Both the position numbers and the translations under genes were made by a program. A DNA stretch of 64,000 nt, taken from NCBI RefSeq assembly GCF_014203735.1, contig NZ_JACHJQ010000001.1, positions 1,103,269 to 1,167,268 on the forward strand, read 5' to 3'. The DNA comes from Actinophytocola algeriensis. GTDB taxonomy: Bacteria > Actinomycetota > Actinomycetes > Mycobacteriales > Pseudonocardiaceae. Under the pieces are notes generated by a model, which had not been told where the DNA came from, did no database searches, and was given only the letters and a program-made list of their open reading frames with translations. Shown in pieces: positions 6,824 to 62,651 of the stretch (within the stretch, counting starts at the first letter, position 1; every line of letters starts with the position of its first letter).

Positions 6824-8731
6824 ATGGTTCAGGTTCAGGTCGAGCGATTCGACTACGACGTCATCGTCATCGGTGCCGGTGGTGCCGGGCTCCGCGCCGC
6901 CATCGAGGCCAGGCAGCAGGGCAAGAAGACCGCGATCATCTCGAAGTCGCTCTTCGGCAAGGCCCACACCGTCATGGCCGAGGGCGGTTGCGCCGCCTCG
7001 ATGGGCAACGTCAACGAGAAGGACAACTGGCAGGTCCACTTCCGCGACACCATGCGCGGCGGGAAGTTCCTCAACAACTGGCGGATGGCCGAGCTCCACG
7101 CCAAGGAGGCCCCCGAGCGCGTCTGGGAGCTGGAGACCTACGGTGCGCTGTTCGACCGCACCAAGGACGGCAAGATCAGCCAGCGCAACTTCGGCGGCCA
7201 CACCTACCCCCGCCTCGCGCACGTCGGTGACCGCACCGGCCTCGAGATGATCCGCACCATGCAGCAGAAGATCGTCTCGCTGCAGCAGGAGGACTTCGCC
7301 GAGACCGGTGACTACGAGTCGCACCTCAAGGTCTTCTCCGAGTGCACCGTCACCGAGCTGATCAAGGACGGCGACCGGATCGCTGGCGCGTTCGCCTACT
7401 GGCGCGACTCCGGCAAGTTCGTGCTGTTCTCCGCGCCGGCCATCGTGCTGGCGACCGGTGGCATCGGCAAGTCGTTCAAGGTCACCTCGAACTCCTGGGA
7501 GTACACCGGCGACGGCCACGCGCTGGCACTGCGCGCGGGCGCGACGCTGATCAACATGGAGTTCGTCCAGTTCCACCCGACCGGCATGGTCTGGCCGCCG
7601 TCGGTGAAGGGCATCCTGGTCACCGAGGGCGTCCGCGGTGACGGCGGTGTCCTGAAGAACTCCGACGGCAAGCGCTTCATGTTCGAGTACATCCCGGACG
7701 TGTTCAAGGGCCAGTACGCGGAGACCGAGCAGGAGGCCGACGGCTGGTACGCCGACCAGGACAACAACCGCCGCACCCCCGACCTGCTGCCCCGCGACGA
7801 GGTCGCCCGCGCGATCAACTCCGAGGTCAAGGCCGGCCGCGGTTCACCGCACGGCGGCGTGTTCCTGGACATCGCGAGCCGTCTCCCGGCCGAGGAGATC
7901 CGCCGCCGCCTGCCGTCGATGTACCACCAGTTCAAGGAACTGGCCGATGTGGACATCACCGCGCAGCCCATGGAGGTCGGTCCGACCTGCCACTACGTCA
8001 TGGGTGGCGTCGAGGTCGACCCCGACACCGCGTCGTCGATCGTGCCGGGCCTGTTCGCGGCCGGTGAGGTCGCGGGCGGCATGCACGGCTCCAACCGCCT
8101 CGGCGGCAACTCGCTGTCCGACCTGATCGTGTTCGGCCGCCGCGCGGGACTCGGCGCGGCCGAGTACATCGACGCGCTCGAGCAGCGTCCGAAGATCTCC
8201 GAGTCCGATGTGGACGGCGCGGCGGCACGTGCGGTGAGCCCGTTCGACTTCCCCAGCTCCGGGCAGGCCGAGAACCCGTACTCGATCCACGCCGAGCTGC
8301 AGCAGTCGATGAACGACCTCGTCGGCATCATCCGCAAGGAAGAGGAAGTCCAGGCGGCGCTGGACAAGCTGGCCGAGCTCAAGGAGCGGGCGAAGCTCGT
8401 CGCAGTCGAGGGCCGCCGCGAGTTCAACCCGGGCTGGCACCTCGCGATCGACCTGCGCAACATGCTGCTCGTCAGCGAGTGCGTCGCCAAGGCCGCGCTC
8501 CTGCGCACGGAGAGCCGCGGTGGGCACACCCGCGACGACTTCCCCGGCATGGACTCCAAGTGGCGCAACACCTTGCTGGTGTGCGAGGCCTACGACGACG
8601 GTGCGCGGGTCACGCCCAAGGAGCAGGTGCCGATGCGCGAGGACCTGCTGGAGCTGTTCGAGCTGTCCGAGCTCGAGAAGTACTACACAGACGGCGAGCT
8701 GGCCGACCACCCGCAGAGGAGTGGCTCATGA
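6824..8731 (+). CDS. sdhA: Succinate dehydrogenase flavoprotein subunit
   Basis: This subunit oxidises succinate to fumarate with covalently bound FAD. The 635 residues begin with the Rossmann motif VIVIGAGGAGLRAAIEA (about 12-28), then the flavin-attachment region around GKAHTVMAEGG, the substrate-site segment QFHPTGM, and the late GMHGSNRLGGNSL and R-rich helical C-terminus typical of SdhA/FrdA. AAGGA lies ahead of the ATG. Length and motifs match the Sdh1/fumarate-reductase-like branch. The stop codon TGA at 8729-8731 is also the first codon of a dispersed repeat element (8729-8828). Confidence 0.95.
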   Translation: MVQVQVERFDYDVIVIGAGGAGLRAAIEARQQGKKTAIISKSLFGKAHTVMAEGGCAASMGNVNEKDNWQVHFRDTMRGGKFLNNWRMAELHAKEAPERVWELETYGALFDRTKDGKISQRNFGGHTYPRLAHVGDRTGLEMIRTMQQKIVSLQQEDFAETGDYESHLKVFSECTVTELIKDGDRIAGAFAYWRDSGKFVLFSAPAIVLATGGIGKSFKVTSNSWEYTGDGHALALRAGATLINMEFVQFHPTGMVWPPSVKGILVTEGVRGDGGVLKNSDGKRFMFEYIPDVFKGQYAETEQEADGWYADQDNNRRTPDLLPRDEVARAINSEVKAGRGSPHGGVFLDIASRLPAEEIRRRLPSMYHQFKELADVDITAQPMEVGPTCHYVMGGVEVDPDTASSIVPGLFAAGEVAGGMHGSNRLGGNSLSDLIVFGRRAGLGAAEYIDALEQRPKISESDVDGAAARAVSPFDFPSSGQAENPYSIHAELQQSMNDLVGIIRKEEEVQAALDKLAELKERAKLVAVEGRREFNPGWHLAIDLRNMLLVSECVAKAALLRTESRGGHTRDDFPGMDSKWRNTLLVCEAYDDGARVTPKEQVPMREDLLELFELSELEKYYTDGELADHPQRSGS

Positions 8732-8828
8732 GCGGAGCTCGCGGAGCTGGCGGAGCGAGTCATCGAACAGAGCATCAAAGCTGGGCGACCCGCGAGCGGC
8801 CGCTCGGAGCCTGCGAGGAGCGGTCATG
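8729..8828 (+). repeat. Stop-to-start dispersed repeat element, sdhA-sdhB copy
   Basis: The element begins on the sdhA TGA (TGAGCGGAGCTCGCGGAG) and ends on the sdhB ATG. Its last 58 bases (8773-8830) match the gluC-gluD spacer (12344 down to 12287, other strand) at 52 of 58 positions, including the Shine-Dalgarno region and ATGAG. Its first part matches the psuG leader (60758 down to about 60725). The core repeated elsewhere is CGGAGCTCGCGGAG. Confidence 0.75.
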
Positions 8829-9587
8829 AGTTACAAGGGCAACTTCAAGGTCTGGCGTGGTGACGCCGACGGCGGTGACCTGGAGGACTACGTCGTCGAG
8901 GTCAACGAGGGTGAGGTCATCCTCGACATCATCCACCGCCTGCAGGCCACGCAGGCGCCGGACCTCGCCGTGCGCTGGAACTGCAAGGCGGGCAAGTGCG
9001 GCTCGTGCTCCGCGGAGATCAACGGCATGCCGCGCCTGATGTGCATGACGCGCATGTCGGTGTTCTCCGAGTCCGAGACGATCACCGTCACGCCACTGCG
9101 CACGTTCCCGGTGATCCGCGACCTCGTCACCGACGTGTCCTTCAACTACGAGAAGGCACGGGAGATCCCGTCGTTCGCGCCGCCGAAGAACCTCGGTCTC
9201 GGCGAGTACCGGATGAAGCAGCAGGACGTCGAGCGCTCGCAGGAGTTCCGCAAGTGCATCGAGTGCTTCCTGTGCCAGAACACCTGCCACGTCATCCGTG
9301 ACCACGAGGAGAACAAGGAGAACTTCGCCGGTCCGCGTTACCTCATGCGGATCGCGGAGCTCGAGATGCACCCCCTCGACGAGGCCGACCGCGAGCGCGC
9401 CGCGCAGGAGGAGCACGGCCTCGGGTACTGCAACATCACCAAGTGCTGCACCGAGGTGTGCCCAGAGCACATCAAGATCACCGACAACGCGCTGATCCCG
9501 ATGAAGGAGCGCGTGGTCGACCGCAAGTACGACCCGGTGGTGTGGCTGGGCAACAAGCTGTTCCGCCGCAGCGGCAGCCGTCACTGA
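8826..9587 (+). CDS. sdhB: Succinate dehydrogenase iron-sulfur subunit
   Basis: The 253-residue protein carries electrons from FAD to the membrane anchor. It has the ferredoxin-type [2Fe-2S] cysteines in CKAGKCGSCSAEI and a later C, then two further cluster motifs, CIECFLCQNTC and CCTEVCPEH, for the [4Fe-4S] and [3Fe-4S] centres. The start ATG at 8826 lies at the end of the dispersed repeat, which supplies GAGGAG eight bases upstream. A terminator-like hairpin follows at 9631-9664. Confidence 0.95.
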   Translation: MSYKGNFKVWRGDADGGDLEDYVVEVNEGEVILDIIHRLQATQAPDLAVRWNCKAGKCGSCSAEINGMPRLMCMTRMSVFSESETITVTPLRTFPVIRDLVTDVSFNYEKAREIPSFAPPKNLGLGEYRMKQQDVERSQEFRKCIECFLCQNTCHVIRDHEENKENFAGPRYLMRIAELEMHPLDEADRERAAQEEHGLGYCNITKCCTEVCPEHIKITDNALIPMKERVVDRKYDPVVWLGNKLFRRSGSRH

Positions 9588-12291: not shown

Positions 12292-12490
12292 GACCGCACC
12301 TCGCAGGCTCCGAGCGTCCGCTGGCGGGCCACCCAGCTCTGATGGTTCACTCCGCGAGCTCCGTCGCCCCGATGGTTCACTCGGCGAGCTCCGTCGCCCC
12401 GATGGTTCACTCCGCGAGCTCCGTCGCCCCGAAGGTTCACTCCGCAAGCTCCGTTGCCCCGATGGTTCACTCCGCAAGCTCCGTTCACCG
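12287..12490 (-). repeat. 30-bp tandem array fused to a start-codon module, gluC-gluD spacer
   Basis: Five 30-base units lie head to tail at 12341-12370, 12371-12400, 12401-12430, 12431-12460 and 12461-12490. The core on the gene strand is CGGAGCTCGCGGAGTGAAC. The first unit in the reading direction contains the TGA stop of gluC (12485-12487). The array runs into a 58-base module (12287-12344) that ends with the gluD ATG and matches the sdhA-sdhB spacer at 52 of 58 bases. There are no unique spacers, so it is not CRISPR. Confidence 0.85.
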
Positions 12491-25995: not shown

Positions 25996-26499
25996 ATGCG
26001 TTGTCCGTTCTGCCGGCACTCGGACTCCCGGGTCGTCGACTCGCGTGAGGTGGACGACGGTCAGGTCATCCGGCGCAGGCGTTCCTGCGTCAAGTGCAGC
26101 CGGCGGTTCACGACCGTCGAAGAGGCCATCCTCGCCGTGGTGAAGCGCTCGGGGGTCACCGAGCCGTTCAGCCGCGAGAAGGTGGTCACCGGGGTGCGGC
26201 GTGCCTGCCAGGGCCGCCCGGTCGACGAGGACGCCCTGCAGCAGCTGGCGCAGAAGGTCGAGGACACGATCAGGTCGACCGGTGCCGCCGAGGTGCCCAG
26301 CCACGAGGTGGGCCTGGCGATCCTCGGCCCGCTCCGGGAGCTCGACGAGGTCGCCTACCTGCGCTTCGCCAGTGTCTACCGAAGCTTTTCGTCCATTGAG
26401 GACTTCGAGAAGGAGATCGCCGGCCTGCGACGGGTGGTCGAACCCGGCACTGGGCTCGATGGTTCGCTCCGCAAGGTCCGCGAAGAAGCGAATGAGTAG
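25996..26499 (+). CDS. nrdR: Transcriptional repressor NrdR
   Basis: NrdR senses ATP/dATP through an ATP-cone and represses ribonucleotide reductase genes. The 167-residue protein has the zinc ribbon (CPFC at 3-6, CVKC at 31-34) and the ATP-cone (about 49-139, with [20 protein letters not shown]). The C-terminus is charged. nrdJ begins 112 bases downstream on the same strand, so the two probably share a promoter with the DnaA-like boxes. The order lexA, LysM gene, nrdR is conserved in mycobacteria. Confidence 0.95.
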
Positions 26500-41877: not shown

Positions 41878-43278
41878 CTACGAGAAGTTGTCGCGGCCCG
41901 CGCCCGGGGAGGGCGCCGCCGTGAACAGGCCCGGCGTGGTCAGCCCACGCTCGGCGAACGCCGCCAGCACCTGCTTGCCGACGGACTCGACCTCGGTGGC
42001 GGCGACGAGTGCGATCGCGGACCCGCCGAAACCGCCGCCGGTCATCCTGGCACCCAGCGCGCCTGCCGTGAGAGCCGTGTCCACGGCTACGTCCAGTTCG
42101 AGGCACGAGATGCGGTAGTCGTCGCGCATGCTGGTGTGGGACGCGGTCAGCAGGTCGCCGATGTCGGCGATCCGGCCCGCGCGCAGGTGCTCGACCGTGC
42201 GTTCCACGCGGGTGTTCTCGGTGACCACGTGACGGACCAGCGGGCGGAGTTCTTCCGGCAGGCGGGCGAGTGCGTCGTCGAGTCCGGACTCGTCGATGTC
42301 GCGGAGTGCCCGCAGTCCCAGGAGATCCGCCGCGCGTTCGCAGCCCGCGCGGCGCTCGCGGTACCCGGAGTCGCTGTGCGAGTGCTTCGCCTTGGTGTCG
42401 ATGACGAGCACAGCCAGACCAGCAGAGGAGGCGTCGAACGGAACCTGCTCCATCTCGCCGGAGCGCACATCGAGGAACAGCACGTGGTCGGCGACGCACG
42501 AGAGTGACGCCGTCTGGTCGAGCAGACCGGTCGGGACACCGACGTAGTCGTTCTCGGACCGCTGCACCCACCTGGCGACCGTCGCGCGGCTCGGCGCGTC
42601 CGGCTCGTCCAGTTCCACCCCGGCCAGCCCGAGCAGCGCCAGCGCGGTCGCGCACTGCAACGCATGAGAGGAGGACAACCCGGCGCCCGCGGGCACATCA
42701 CCGGCGATGACGAGGTCGGCACCACCGCTGAAGCCCTCGTTGTGCAGCACCCACGCGACCCCGGACGGGTACGCCGCCCAGCCCTCGACCGACCGCGGCG
42801 CCAGGTCGGCGATGGCCACTGGTTCGGCCTGCTGGGGTCGGCCGTCGTCGCCGACGGTCGTGACGGCCAGGCGGCCGTCGGCGCGCGGTGAGGCGGCGAC
42901 CGCGATGCGGTACGGCAACGCGAACGGCAGCACGAAGCCGTCGTTGTAGTCGGTGTGCTCGCCGATCAGGTTGACGCGGCCCGGCGCCGACCACACACCG
43001 GTGGGTGGGCGGCCGTGGATGCGCGCGAACGCGGCGGCCGCGCGGGCAGGCACGTTGTGCGTGGCCGTGCCGAGCACGGACGCGGCCTGGCCACTCCCGG
43101 CGCCGGCGGCTCCCGCACCGGCGGCTGGGTCCCCTGCGGCCAGGGCGCGTGCGGTGTCGTTGTCCGTGGTCGTGTTGTCCGTGGTCGTGTTGTCCGTGGT
43201 CGTGCTGTCCGAGGTTGTGCTGTCGGTGGGCGTGTTGTCGCGCGCGTCGGCGGTGCCGCGCTCGTTCGTGGTGGTCAC
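41878..43278 (-). CDS. galK: Galactokinase, with a possible low-complexity N-terminal extension
   Basis: GalK phosphorylates galactose. The core has [16 protein letters not shown], the ATP motif [10 protein letters not shown] and [11 protein letters not shown]. From the GTG at 43278 the product is 466 residues, with about 80 residues of Thr/Asp-rich repeats (TTTDN) and alanine-rich sequence before the kinase fold. Starts at 43077 (399 residues) or 43053 (391) would give a normal length, but none of the three has a good Shine-Dalgarno sequence. I keep the longest because it begins 14 bases after the ideR stop. The usual start is uncertain. Confidence 0.88.
43156..43240 (-). repeat. Six 15-bp tandem repeats at the start of galK
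   Basis: The unit on the + strand is TCGTGTTGTCCGTGG; full copies lie at 43170-43184 and 43185-43199, with degenerate copies before and after. The unit length keeps the galK frame, where it encodes repeated TTTDN-like residues. Replication slippage would change the length of the tail. Confidence 0.8.
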
Positions 43279-54624: not shown

Positions 54625-54936
54625 GTGAAGTCCGAGCGGGACGACACCCCGGTTCTCATCACCGAGGCGGCGCCGTCGTACGAAGAGGAGTACGCGGCGC
54701 GCAAACGCAAGTACCTGACGATGATGTTGCTGCGCATGCCGTGCCTGATCCTGGCGGGCATCTTCCACCAGACGTGGTGGCTGGCGCTGGCGTTCGTGGC
54801 GCTGTCGATCCCACTGCCGTGGATCGCCGTGCTGATCGCGAACGACCGGCCGCCCCGCAAGGCGGAGCACGTCAACCGCTACGAGCAGACGCCGATGGCG
54901 CTGGAAAAAGGGGACCACCCGGTCATCGACGGCTGA
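54625..54936 (+). CDS. DUF3099 membrane protein
   Basis: The 103-residue protein has a charged start (TPVLITEAAPSYEEEYAARKRKYL), two membrane helices (MMLLRMPCLILAGIF and WWLALAFVALSIPLPWIAVLIA) and a tail with NDRPPRKAEHV. This layout is DUF3099, found near sigB in mycobacteria (Rv2709). Function is unknown. The GTG at 54625 follows GGGAGGTGG. The end overlaps the PfkB kinase gene on the other strand by 14 bases. Confidence 0.85.
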   Translation: MKSERDDTPVLITEAAPSYEEEYAARKRKYLTMMLLRMPCLILAGIFHQTWWLALAFVALSIPLPWIAVLIANDRPPRKAEHVNRYEQTPMALEKGDHPVIDG

Positions 54937-55807
54937 CGGGACCGGGCTGCGCGCCCACCCTGCCCACCGCCATGGCGCCCAGCCGCACACCCGCCTGCAG
55001 GCACTCCTCCTTCGGCTTGCCCTCGAGCAGCGCCGACAGCAGCCCGGCGTCGAACGCGTCGCCTGCGCCCGTCGAGTCGACGCAGTCACCCGGCGCCGCA
55101 GGCACGGACACGATGCCGTCGGAGTCCACCCAGCTCGCCCCTGCCGGACCTGTGGTGACCGCGACCGCCCCGACCCGGTCGAGCAGCGTGGCGGCGCTCG
55201 CCGGGTCGTGTGAGCCGGTCAGCCGCTCCAGCTCGTCCAGGTTCGGCAGCAGCACGTCCACGTCGCGCAGTTCCTCCAGGAACAGCGCGGGGTCGGTGAT
55301 CAGCGCCGCCGCCTGCGGGTCGACCGACGTGGTCAGGCCTGCGTCGTGCGCGGCCGCCAGCATCGCGAGGCCTGCCTCGCGGGTCTCCTCGTCGAGCAGC
55401 ACGTAGCCGGACAGGTGCAGGTGCCGCGCGTCGCGCAGCAGCGCGGGGTCGAGGTCGGACGCGGCGAGGTGCTTGCCCGCGCCGCGGTCGGGCAGCATGC
55501 TGCGCTGCCCGTCGCTGTCCACCAGGACCACAACGGTGCAGGTCGCGGCGTCGGGGTCAATTGTGAATGCGCAGCGCACCCCGGTGGTGGTTAGCTCCTC
55601 GGATGCGCGTCGCCCCGCCACGTCGTCGCCCACCCGAGCCACCAGCACCGTCTCGACCCCGTTGTACGCGAGCCACGCCGCCGTGTTCGCGCCCGCGCCA
55701 CCGATCGTGAGCGCGATCTTCGCCCTGGCGTCCCCGCCGTGCACGATCGATCCGGCATGAGAGGCGACCACGTCCAACGCGACGTCGCCGACGACCACGA
55801 TTCCCAC
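54923..55807 (-). CDS. PfkB-family carbohydrate kinase
   Basis: The 294-residue kinase has the PfkB start GDVALDVVASH, GGAGANTAAWLA and the C-terminal signature DSTGAGDAFDAGLLSAL with the catalytic Asp. It could be a ribokinase or, given psuG nearby, a pseudouridine kinase (PsuK). The GTG at 55807 follows AGGAG. Upstream, 30-bp repeats (55851-55990) would be translated as repeats of SVETVGACAV if the frame were extended; I treat them as non-coding. The closest operon member is not clear. Confidence 0.82.
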   Translation of the reverse strand: MGIVVVGDVALDVVASHAGSIVHGGDARAKIALTIGGAGANTAAWLAYNGVETVLVARVGDDVAGRRASEELTTTGVRCAFTIDPDAATCTVVVLVDSDGQRSMLPDRGAGKHLAASDLDPALLRDARHLHLSGYVLLDEETREAGLAMLAAAHDAGLTTSVDPQAAALITDPALFLEELRDVDVLLPNLDELERLTGSHDPASAATLLDRVGAVAVTTGPAGASWVDSDGIVSVPAAPGDCVDSTGAGDAFDAGLLSALLEGKPKEECLQAGVRLGAMAVGRVGAQPGPVSRR

Positions 55808-55850
55808 ACCGCTCCTATCGCCACGCACCAGGACAAGCGAGATCGCCTCA

Positions 55851-55990
55851 ATGCTCACTACGCCAGTTCCGACGGTCTCCACGCTCACTGCGCAAGCTCC
55901 GACGGTCTCCACGCTCACTACGCCAGTTCCGACGGTCTCCACGCTCACTGCGCAAGCTCCGACGGTCTCCACGCTCACTACGCAAGCTCC
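55851..55990. repeat. 30/60-bp tandem repeat array between divergent genes
   Basis: Bases 55861-55920 and 55921-55980 are identical 60-base blocks. Each is two diverged 30-base units. The core GCTCACTGCGCAAGCTCCG agrees with GTTCACTCCGCGAGCTCCG of the glu array at 16 of 19 positions. The array fills most of the region between the PfkB gene and an ABC-2 permease gene, so it probably contains or sits beside both promoters. Confidence 0.9.
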
Positions 55991-56008
55991 GTTCGGAGGC
56001 TAACCCGC

Positions 56009-56821
56009 GTGCTCTCGACCAGCACCGTCCGGGTGCTCGCCGCGCTCGCGGGGGCGGAGTTCCGGCGTTACGCCACCTACCGGCAGGCGACCTTCGCCGG
56101 CGCGTTCACCAACACCGTCTTCGGTTTCGTCCGCTGCTACACGTTGCTGTCCGTCGCCGCGGTGACCGGCCAGATGGCGGGCTACGACCCGGCCCAGCTG
56201 GTCACGTTCGTGTGGGTGGGGCAGGGGCTGCTCGCGGTCGTCAACTACTGGGGCCAGCAGGAGCTGCCGGAGCGGGTGCGGACCGGGCAGGTGGTCGCCG
56301 ACCTGCTGCGGCCGGTGGACCTGATGGCCACGTTCGTCGCCGCCGACGTCGGCCGGGCCGGGCACGCGATGCTGACCCGGTTCGTGGTCCCGGTGGCGGT
56401 CGGGCTGCTGGCGTTCGACTTCTACCTGCCCGCGCACGCGTGGACCTACGCCCTGTTCGCCGTGTCCGTGCTGCTCGCGGTGCTGGTGTGTACCGCATGC
56501 CGGTACCTGGTGGCGTTGTCGGCGTTCTGGCTGCTCGACGTGCGTGGCGCGCAGATGGTGTGGCTGGTCGCGTCCGGTGCGGGCAGCGGGCTGTACTTCC
56601 CGATCACCGTCCTGCCGGACTGGCTGGTGCTGGCGCTGTGGGTCGGCACCCCGTTCCCGTCGCTGATGCAGGCGCCGCTGGACGTGCTGGTCGAGCGCGG
56701 CGGCACGGGGCACGGGCTGCTGCTGGTCGCGGGGCAGGTCGCGTGGGTGCTGGTGCTGGTGGCGCTGGGCCGGGTCGTGCAGGCGCGGGCGGTGCGGCGG
56801 CTGGTGGTGCAGGGTGGCTAA
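56009..56821 (+). CDS. ABC-2/DUF990 transporter permease 1
   Basis: The 270-residue protein has six membrane helices (from TFAGAFTNTVFGFVRCYTLLSV to VAWVLVLVALGRVV). It belongs to the DUF990 ABC-2 permease type used as heterodimers in actinobacterial exporters such as the viologen exporter. The GTG at 56009 follows CGGAGG. It overlaps permease 2 by 8 bases, and the ATPase gene follows. Confidence 0.82.
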   Translation: MLSTSTVRVLAALAGAEFRRYATYRQATFAGAFTNTVFGFVRCYTLLSVAAVTGQMAGYDPAQLVTFVWVGQGLLAVVNYWGQQELPERVRTGQVVADLLRPVDLMATFVAADVGRAGHAMLTRFVVPVAVGLLAFDFYLPAHAWTYALFAVSVLLAVLVCTACRYLVALSAFWLLDVRGAQMVWLVASGAGSGLYFPITVLPDWLVLALWVGTPFPSLMQAPLDVLVERGGTGHGLLLVAGQVAWVLVLVALGRVVQARAVRRLVVQGG

Positions 56822-60705: not shown

Positions 60706-60758
60706 GCGGTCCTTCCCACTCGGCTGCGCTCGATCGTTCGCTCCGCGAGCTCCGCTCA
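60706..60758 (-). repeat. Stop-linked repeat element, M48 gene to psuG
   Basis: On the minus strand the element begins with the TGA of the M48 gene (TGAGCGGAGCTCGCGGAG) and runs to the psuG start. The first 18 bases equal those at the sdhA stop. Unlike sdh and glu, the start-side module is not conserved here. Confidence 0.65.
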
Positions 60759-62651
60759 CGACGCCACCTGCTCCGGCCGCGCGTCGGCGAGCGGCGGGAG
60801 CGGGCAGTGGATGAGCGCGCACACGGTGCGCAGCAGCTCGATCTCCGACACGGTCATCACGCCGTCGTGCCCGATGACCGTCACCATGCCGGCCACCAGG
60901 TACTGCTTCTCCGGCCCGTCCAAGCCGTCGAGGGCAGGCCACACGTTCTCCAGCAGCACCGGCGGCACTGGCGCGAACGGCAGCGGCTGCCCTGGCACCA
61001 CCTGCGCCAGTCCCGCACGGTACGCGTCCTCCGCCTGCCCCGGCCTGCCGGTTTCCGCGAGCACCGCGAACAGTGTCGCCGCCGCCTGGTTGATCGCCTG
61101 CCGCCCGGCGCGCCGCCTGCCCCACGGCGAGGTGCGGTGCACCGACTCGTACAGCTCGCGGTGCAGCAGCCGGGACAGGCAGTACTCGTGCAGGTCCAGC
61201 ACGCCGTCCGTCTGCGCGAGCGCGTGGATGCACGCGAGCACCGCGTCCTGCTCCTGGCGCGGCCGCCGACGCAGCACGGGGAACGCCAGCTCGGCCAGCG
61301 GCAGCCGCAGCACCGGGTGCAGTGACGCCAGTGCCTGCGCCTCCTGTCCCGCCGCGTTCGCGACCGCGGCGCCGAACCTGCTCGCGATGATCTGGTGTGC
61401 CGTCCTGGCCTGCGGGTCCCTGGCCATCAGCAGCCCGAGTACCAGCGGCAGCACCGCGTCGGGGTGGCGGGCGCGGTCCAGGACCGGTGCGGGGATGGCG
61501 GCGAGGATCGAGCCTGCCCGCTGGTGCTCGGCCGACCGCGGCACCGCGGCGGTGCCGACCGACGCGACGACGTCCTCGGGCCGGACCGGCATGGGCGCGT
61601 TCCGCGGCGGCAGCGGACGTTCGGTCGGCGGGGTGAGGCCCAGCACCTCGTCCTCGTGCATGCCGTTCGGCGCCTGCGCCTGCCAGGCCGTGGTGAGCTG
61701 CGCGAGCTGCGCCGGGTCGAACGTCGGGTCGAGGGTGCGGATCCGCCGCTCCAGCGGCGGGTGGGTGGCGAACCAGTTCGCGAAGCCCTCGCCGAACAGC
61801 ATGTGGCTGACGTCCTCGGACCGCTTGTTCCGCAGCTTGGCGCCCTCGGGGAGCCCGCCGATCTTCTTCAGCGCGCCGACGAGTCCCTCGGTCTGGCGGG
61901 TGTACTGCACGGCGGACGCGTCGGCGAGGTACTCCCGCTGCCGGGACACCGCGGCCTTGATCAGCCTGCCGAAGAACACCCCGATGTACCCGACGATCAT
62001 CAGCACGAGCCCGATCAGCGGCAGCGGGTTCTTCTCACCTCGGATGTGCAGCAGGATCCGGCCGACGACGGCGAGCCCGAGGATGCCGAACAGCACGCCC
62101 ATCAGCCGGATGTTGAGCCGCATGTCGCCGTTCACGACGTGGCTGAACTCGTGCGCGATCACGCCCTGCAGCTCGTCGCGGTTGAGCCGTTCCAGCGCGC
62201 CGTGGGTGACCGCGACCGCGGCGTCGGCGGGCGTGAACCCGGCGGCGAACGCGTTGATGCCCTGCTCGTTGGGGAGCACGTACACCTCGGGCACCGGGGT
62301 GCCGGACGCGATCGCCATCTCCTCGACGACGTTGCGCAGCCTGCGCAGCCGGGGGTCGGTGGTGTTCTCTTCCACGAGCATGCCGCCGAGCGACTGCGCG
62401 ACCCTGCCACCACCACCGTTCTTGAGCACCAGCGTGCGGAAGAACGAGGTCAGCCCGATCGCGACGACCAGGAACAGGCTGAGCCCGATCATCATGTTCA
62501 TGATCGTCGCCGCGCTCTGCTCGGACAGCCCGAGCAGGAAGAACGCGATCAGGTCGACGACCACGACGAGCGTGATCACAGCGACGACGAACAACACGAC
62601 CAGGCGGCGCGACGACTTGCGGACATCCTGCTGGCGTTGGAAGAAGTTCAT
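60756..62651 (-). CDS. M48-family membrane metallopeptidase
   Basis: The 631-residue protein has two N-terminal helices (LVVLFVVAVITLVVVVDL and MMIGLSLFLVVAIGLTSFF), the zinc motif HEFSH, two more helices around LMGVLFGILGLAVVG and LIGLVLMIVGYIGVFF, and the third zinc ligand Glu in REYLADA. This half resembles HtpX. The C-terminal half (about 340-631) is a cytoplasmic extension I do not recognise. A LemA protein is encoded 0.6 kb upstream, and LemA and M48 peptidases are known to co-occur. Probably in membrane protein quality control. Confidence 0.9.
   Translation of the reverse strand: MNFFQRQQDVRKSSRRLVVLFVVAVITLVVVVDLIAFFLLGLSEQSAATIMNMMIGLSLFLVVAIGLTSFFRTLVLKNGGGGRVAQSLGGMLVEENTTDPRLRRLRNVVEEMAIASGTPVPEVYVLPNEQGINAFAAGFTPADAAVAVTHGALERLNRDELQGVIAHEFSHVVNGDMRLNIRLMGVLFGILGLAVVGRILLHIRGEKNPLPLIGLVLMIVGYIGVFFGRLIKAAVSRQREYLADASAVQYTRQTEGLVGALKKIGGLPEGAKLRNKRSEDVSHMLFGEGFANWFATHPPLERRIRTLDPTFDPAQLAQLTTAWQAQAPNGMHEDEVLGLTPPTERPLPPRNAPMPVRPEDVVASVGTAAVPRSAEHQRAGSILAAIPAPVLDRARHPDAVLPLVLGLLMARDPQARTAHQIIASRFGAAVANAAGQEAQALASLHPVLRLPLAELAFPVLRRRPRQEQDAVLACIHALAQTDGVLDLHEYCLSRLLHRELYESVHRTSPWGRRRAGRQAINQAAATLFAVLAETGRPGQAEDAYRAGLAQVVPGQPLPFAPVPPVLLENVWPALDGLDGPEKQYLVAGMVTVIGHDGVMTVSEIELLRTVCALIHCPLPPLADARPEQVAS

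Follow-up and report, generated by a model that had tools for sequence, protein, structure and literature searches.

The tandem array between the pfkB and exporter genes is best explained as a copy of a short, apparently mobile element, truncated and then expanded in tandem. This element resembles the mycobacterial interspersed repetitive units (MIRUs) and is scattered through the Actinophytocola algeriensis genome. The array most likely has no dedicated function, and we put the probability of this reading at roughly three in four. It rests on a core repeat that the array shares with more than 200 other copies, on the absence of the array from the same gap in relatives, and on the structure of full-length copies elsewhere. 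The window is the whole 64,000-nucleotide stretch analysed here, and it lies in a draft assembly of 23 contigs. About 80 loci were parsed, rather than the whole genome, with simple home-made gene calls; those beyond the window and C2:1-400000 were picked for core matches.

The array and its core family

TRF called a tandem array with periods of 30 bp (90% match) and 60 bp (97%), made up of five 30-bp units in the order A B A B C. The sequence-only reading had reported that 55861–55920 and 55921–55980 are identical; direct comparison confirmed this and extended it, showing perfect identity at a 60-bp shift over 71 bp (55853–55923 and 55913–55983). Because pfkB, on the minus strand, extends to 55807 and the exporter permease gene begins at 56009, the array takes up much of the gap between them, and the exporter locus continues with a second permease gene and then an ATPase gene (Table 1). 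TRF also found an unrelated 15-bp tandem repeat of 5.4 copies at 43159–43239.

Table 1. Positions of the array, its surroundings and other family members in the window. R1 is our sequence-only model of the element, and its E-values are rough.
Feature	Position	Strand	Basis
Array of five 30-bp core-only units	55853..55991	-	TRF, direct sequence, extents, class and context
Unit C, nearest to the family consensus; sense GAACGGAGCTTGCGTAGTGAGC	55973..55994	-	Exact match to TCACTNCGCNAGCTCCGT
Intergenic gap between divergent genes, 201 bp, containing the array	55808..56008	.	Gene calls; comparison with L061-L064
PfkB-family carbohydrate kinase gene (pfkB), GTG start, own AGGAG	54923..55807	-	Pfam PF00294, E 3.6e-53
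ABC-2 exporter permease gene	56009..56821	+	Pfam PF06182, gene calls
50-codon open frame crossing the array, MLTTPVPTVSTLTAQAP...FGG, TAA; possible upstream ORF	55851..56003	+	Sequence
Family member at gluC-gluD: GTGA, five 30-bp units, 3' end, ATGA	12292..12488	-	Sequence
Long-form element, 98 bp D to D, 33-codon frame, then ATGA of the next gene	8728..8825	+	R1 match 8741-8829, E 1.1e-15
Single shorter element, GTGA, 54 bp, between two minus-strand genes	60706..60759	-	R1 match
Weak partial element, core plus AACCATCGAGC	26442..26481	-	R1 match, E 7e-5; sequence

In the sense of the element the array reads along the minus strand, so that unit C comes first, preceded by CGA and not by TGA. 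Unit C agrees with the genome-wide consensus at 17 of 18 core positions; when the gap was shuffled 20,000 times, this score was never reached. The array had also been linked to a second one at the glu locus (12341–12490), and the 16 of 19 agreement between the two cores, TCACTGCGCAAGCTCCGAC and TCACTCCGCGAGCTCCGTC, was borne out. Allowing up to three mismatches, the core pattern has 13 matches in the window against 1.18 expected. A tightened 18-bp core, TCRCTNCGCNAGCTCCGY, has 211 exact matches in the 9.7-Mb genome and none for a reversed-pattern control, counts that exclude an accidental similarity of the cores. They also make it extremely improbable, together with the score of unit C, that the array is an ordinary minisatellite that merely happens to resemble the glu array, even though several core positions of its A units deviate from the consensus.

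The core occurs in two subtypes, TCGCT..CCGC and TCACT..CCGT. Their outer positions (G..C in one, A..T in the other) were considered as a base pair and this was dropped: the subtypes are linked, with the flanking positions unpaired. At the sampled loci, arrays contain one to six units with periods mostly of 30–33 bp, and the linker varies little or not at all inside an array but differs from one array to the next. Since linkers are private to an array while the core is common, each array appears to have expanded locally; this agrees with the suggestion, made from the window alone, that the pfkB–exporter array is another branch of the family, one that expanded on its own. A CRISPR array was ruled out, as linkers within an array are alike and there are no unique spacers.

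Setting of the array and its possible functions

The gap between pfkB and the exporter holds no array in any of the four congeners with the same gene order (L061-L064). In two of these, G005 and G001, the flank reads GGAGGCTA(A)CC or a close variant, in common with G000. This places its arrival or expansion later than the divergence from the sampled congeners. The likeliest order of events is that a C-like, core-only founder in the gap duplicated, that A and B then diverged by three changes, and that the A-B dimer was duplicated in turn.

The sequence-only reading had proposed that the array acts as an operator, and had named a lack of conservation in close relatives as evidence against its interpretation; at this locus, that is what the four congeners display. 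Its placement of the array in the same family as the glu repeats stands, while the operator role is unsupported. As repeated sites for a regulator of pfkB, of the exporter or of both, the units would suit their place between divergent genes, their number and their regular 30-bp spacing of about three helical turns. Such sites should be conserved at the same promoter in relatives, yet they are absent there; elsewhere the 211 cores lie mostly between stop and start codons within operons, and the spacing is variously 30, 31, 32, 33 bp or more. We consider an operator array quite improbable.

The CGA that replaces TGA in front of the array defines a minor class of 8 of the 79 parsed loci, the array itself included. 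Half of these eight sit in gaps between divergent genes, which again would suit operators, and the period is exactly 30 bp in every CGA-type array (five arrays), which could hint at a constraint. At L178, a CGA-type copy that lies ahead of an aspartokinase-like gene is full-length, which links the CGA type to the full element.

A constant period of 30 bp would also preserve a reading frame, and the 50-codon frame that crosses the array may be translated and couple or tune translation of the exporter. This frame is open across all five units and stops 5 nt short of the exporter start, and elsewhere the family joins small frames to genes. However, a ribosome site before its ATG is not clear, the stop and GGAGG belong to the ancestral flank that relatives without the array also possess, and both strands are open, as expected for any stop-free 30-bp repeat. 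A functional upstream ORF is therefore unlikely and a weaker alternative to the truncated, expanded element.

The array is core only, lacking the 3' half, the hairpin and, in the sense direction, a frame coupled to a next gene. With CGA in place of TGA in front and a divergent gap around it, the array has no stop/start junction either. Since all these parts are missing, the mechanism proposed below for the full element would not apply here. We infer that core-only arrays derive from full elements and not the reverse. The array is probably a recent, neutral minisatellite expansion that would at most make the leader regions longer.

The full element as a putative mini-cistron at stop/start overlaps

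Read on the sense strand, most copies of the element run from the stop of one gene to the start of the next, with TGA followed by RCGGAGCTTGCGGAGYGAACC. TGA precedes 56 of the 79 parsed loci, and as a rule it is the codon that terminates a same-direction gene at distance 0. Full-length copies finish with GGAGCCTGCGAGGNGCGGTC directly before the ATG or GTG of the next gene, and the motif at this 3' end has 42 copies genome-wide and none in the control. Thirteen clean cases measure 77 or 65 bp from D to D. Among the 31 DTGA insertions that have a stop upstream, this distance equals 2 mod 3 in 25, and 19 have a small frame whose TGA shares 4 nt with the next start. The small frame of full copies has 22–26 codons, with VSGARGANHQTQGDRERPLGACEERS (77 bp) and VNGACGVNHRAPWPLGACEERP (65 bp) as typical products, and some 32-bp arrays form chains of 10–11-codon frames, the stop of each lying at the following GTGA.

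The gluC-gluD element is complete and in frame over 66 codons, its GTG overlapping the gluC stop and its TGA overlapping the gluD ATG. In relatives the two genes overlap directly by ATGA or GTGA (e.g. ATGA in G012, G014 and G008). Inserts are found in G000 and G002 only, and that of G002 is shorter and different but lies at the identical point. These retained empty sites indicate insertion into the overlap, with DTGA on both sides. Judged from such sequences, the full element swaps one ATGA/GTGA overlap for two such sites. Of the other members in the window, the small frame of the 60706..60759 element continues into the next gene; the long-form element at 8728..8825 lies between two plus-strand genes and carries an extra partial core.

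A mechanism can be proposed on this basis, in which translation, coupling and mobility are all deduced from sequence patterns. The standard element would be a mini-cistron of 65 or 77 bp that inserts into DTGA where a stop overlaps the next start, leaving a DTGA on either side. With a DTG start of its own it would capture ribosomes finishing the upstream gene; these would translate the 22–26 codons and then presumably open a 3' hairpin that base-pairs with the following gene's start region. Because the TGA of the small frame overlaps the next start, the flanking genes would remain translationally coupled. The 5' core of the element seems prone to tandem duplication with periods of 30–33 bp, from which arrays such as the one described above would arise.

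The hairpin was examined in 38 copies from the host genome, in an alignment (A3) built without reference to hairpin structure. The stem of the 3' end pairs columns 47–56 with 69–78, and 46 cells are changed on both sides. Covariation was 0.413, compared with 0.152 in shuffles (the observed value was reached by none of 500) and at most 0.132 for slid partners. In neither the core nor the hairpin do third codon positions vary clearly more than the other two, so conservation appears to act at the level of nucleotides and not of the peptide.

With its many short copies, a hairpin at one end and no autonomous partner seen, the element might instead be a REP/BIME-like or other transposase-dependent palindromic repeat. 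Against this, the target is a stop/start overlap, the phase of the frame is preserved, and the hairpin adjoins the next start codon without spanning the unit. We regard this alternative to a MIRU-like mini-cistron as unlikely. The core is not palindromic, and a hairpin is present at the 3' end only. As for an autonomous element with the same ends, no long transposon was present among the fetched 3' ends away from an exact core, nearly all of which were diverged copies of 60–80 bp, one of them only partial; no mobilising enzyme was found. An Rfam search of five element-bearing loci returned no match.

Distribution and changes in copy number

The core family is patchy in its distribution. Exact cores number 49, 27, 5, 3 and 1 in congeners, whereas the majority of other genomes in the host's family have none. 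Tandem cores are also present in Pseudonocardia, Actinophytocola, Rhodococcus and mycobacteria, while a tandem match in Sphingomonas (L097, with a 9-bp register) was dismissed as coincidence. The Pseudonocardia loci L071-L121 have mostly 31-bp units with CTGA in each, in a register unlike that of the DTGA arrays. At L195 (C5:626300-632300), a core array lies antisense in the 3' end of an apparent ruvC, with a repeated tail before ruvA.

Across Mycobacteriales, R1 matched 53 of 397 genomes. In the genus of G407 it matched 89 of 396; we take this genus to be Mycobacterium, since the sequence at its locus L258 is the same as that at L079 of M. iranicum. Outside the order, the search of 396 phylum genomes gave just two near-threshold matches. 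Among 30 loci from across the order, 26 start with DTGA, and 18 have long frames on both flanks with a small frame between them. Of the best 28 loci of the genus taken for Mycobacterium, 27 have a D-to-D distance of 65 bp and the remaining one has 74 bp, hence 2 mod 3 throughout, and long frames lie on either side in 17. Single-sequence folds of copies from this genus give a similar stem, often taking in the ATG of the next gene.

Two pairs of orthologous loci, L103 of A. oryzae DSM 45499 with L180 (3 kb aligned, 79%) and L119 of an Actinophytocola sp. with L191 (2.7 kb aligned, 85%), share the element but differ in unit number, 5 versus 2 (one degenerate unit counted) and 1 versus 3. Arrays of the family thus behave as VNTRs, here between species. 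Tandem arrays with longer units of 74, 80 and 122 bp were seen in congeners and in G014, at G001:C16:328153-328525, G014:C4:263832-264075 and G002:C5:512690-512951.

Relation to MIRUs and other repeats

MIRU-like elements are known chiefly as typing markers of tuberculosis bacteria. Descriptions of MIRUs (Supply et al. 1997) are given in PMC12548453, PMC2734929 and PMC4213456: the first, a review, presents them as mobile and as inserting at start codons, which leaves their ORF coupled at −4 nt; the second gives sizes of 40–100 bp and 41 locations; and the third reports senX3-regX3 MIRUs of 77 and 53 bp, which it confines to M. leprae and the M. tuberculosis complex. The element described here is likewise a short intergenic unit at start codons, with a small frame that overlaps the downstream gene by 4 nt and with tandem copies. 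Its full copies are dispersed units of 65 and 77 bp (38 aligned), the latter being the length of a senX3-regX3 unit. It is inserted at DTGA overlaps that are kept at both ends, as the gluC-gluD empty site and the −4 overlap illustrate, and its tandem copies vary in number at orthologous loci. The small ORF has the same orientation as the flanking genes and adjoins the next one, a point that concerns architecture only. The element is MIRU-like by every feature examined, a likeness to the architecture described for MIRUs. Unlike the senX3-regX3 MIRUs as reported, it is found in Pseudonocardiaceae and across Mycobacteriales, and it also forms core-only arrays of 30–33 bp, CTGA arrays of 31 bp, and antisense or promoter-gap copies. 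Nowhere in the literature searched is the core, the 3' end or the peptide printed, and no paper there links 'DTGA' with MIRUs.

Whether Mycobacteriales have a single superfamily of mobile, non-autonomous mini-cistrons in stop/start overlaps, with the tuberculosis MIRUs as one branch, is in our judgement evenly balanced. If so, inserts would be rendered harmless by re-coupled translation, the hairpin over the downstream start would tie expression to reading of the insert, and tandem copies would act as a series of micro-ORFs, each overlapping the following one, by which expression of the adjoining gene is tuned. In this genus the core copies exceed 200, empty sites are clear, the hairpin over the next start codon covaries and copy number changes from species to species; homologues occur in many environmental Mycobacterium species as well. 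This makes the coupling idea testable in harmless laboratory organisms. The pfkB–exporter array itself would be an ordinary by-product.

Other known repeats are alike in part. The MIRU-VNTR/ETR minisatellites of M. tuberculosis also vary in tandem unit number at one locus between relatives, but the comparison here is between species rather than strains and the units are of 30–33 bp. REP/BIME sequences likewise occur outside genes as hundreds of short dispersed copies, whereas the element here has no whole-unit palindrome and is bound to stop/start overlaps and the reading frame. The TAACTGA direct repeats of Beggiatoaceae (PMC4679880) are abundant short direct repeats between genes too, with a different sequence and unit size.
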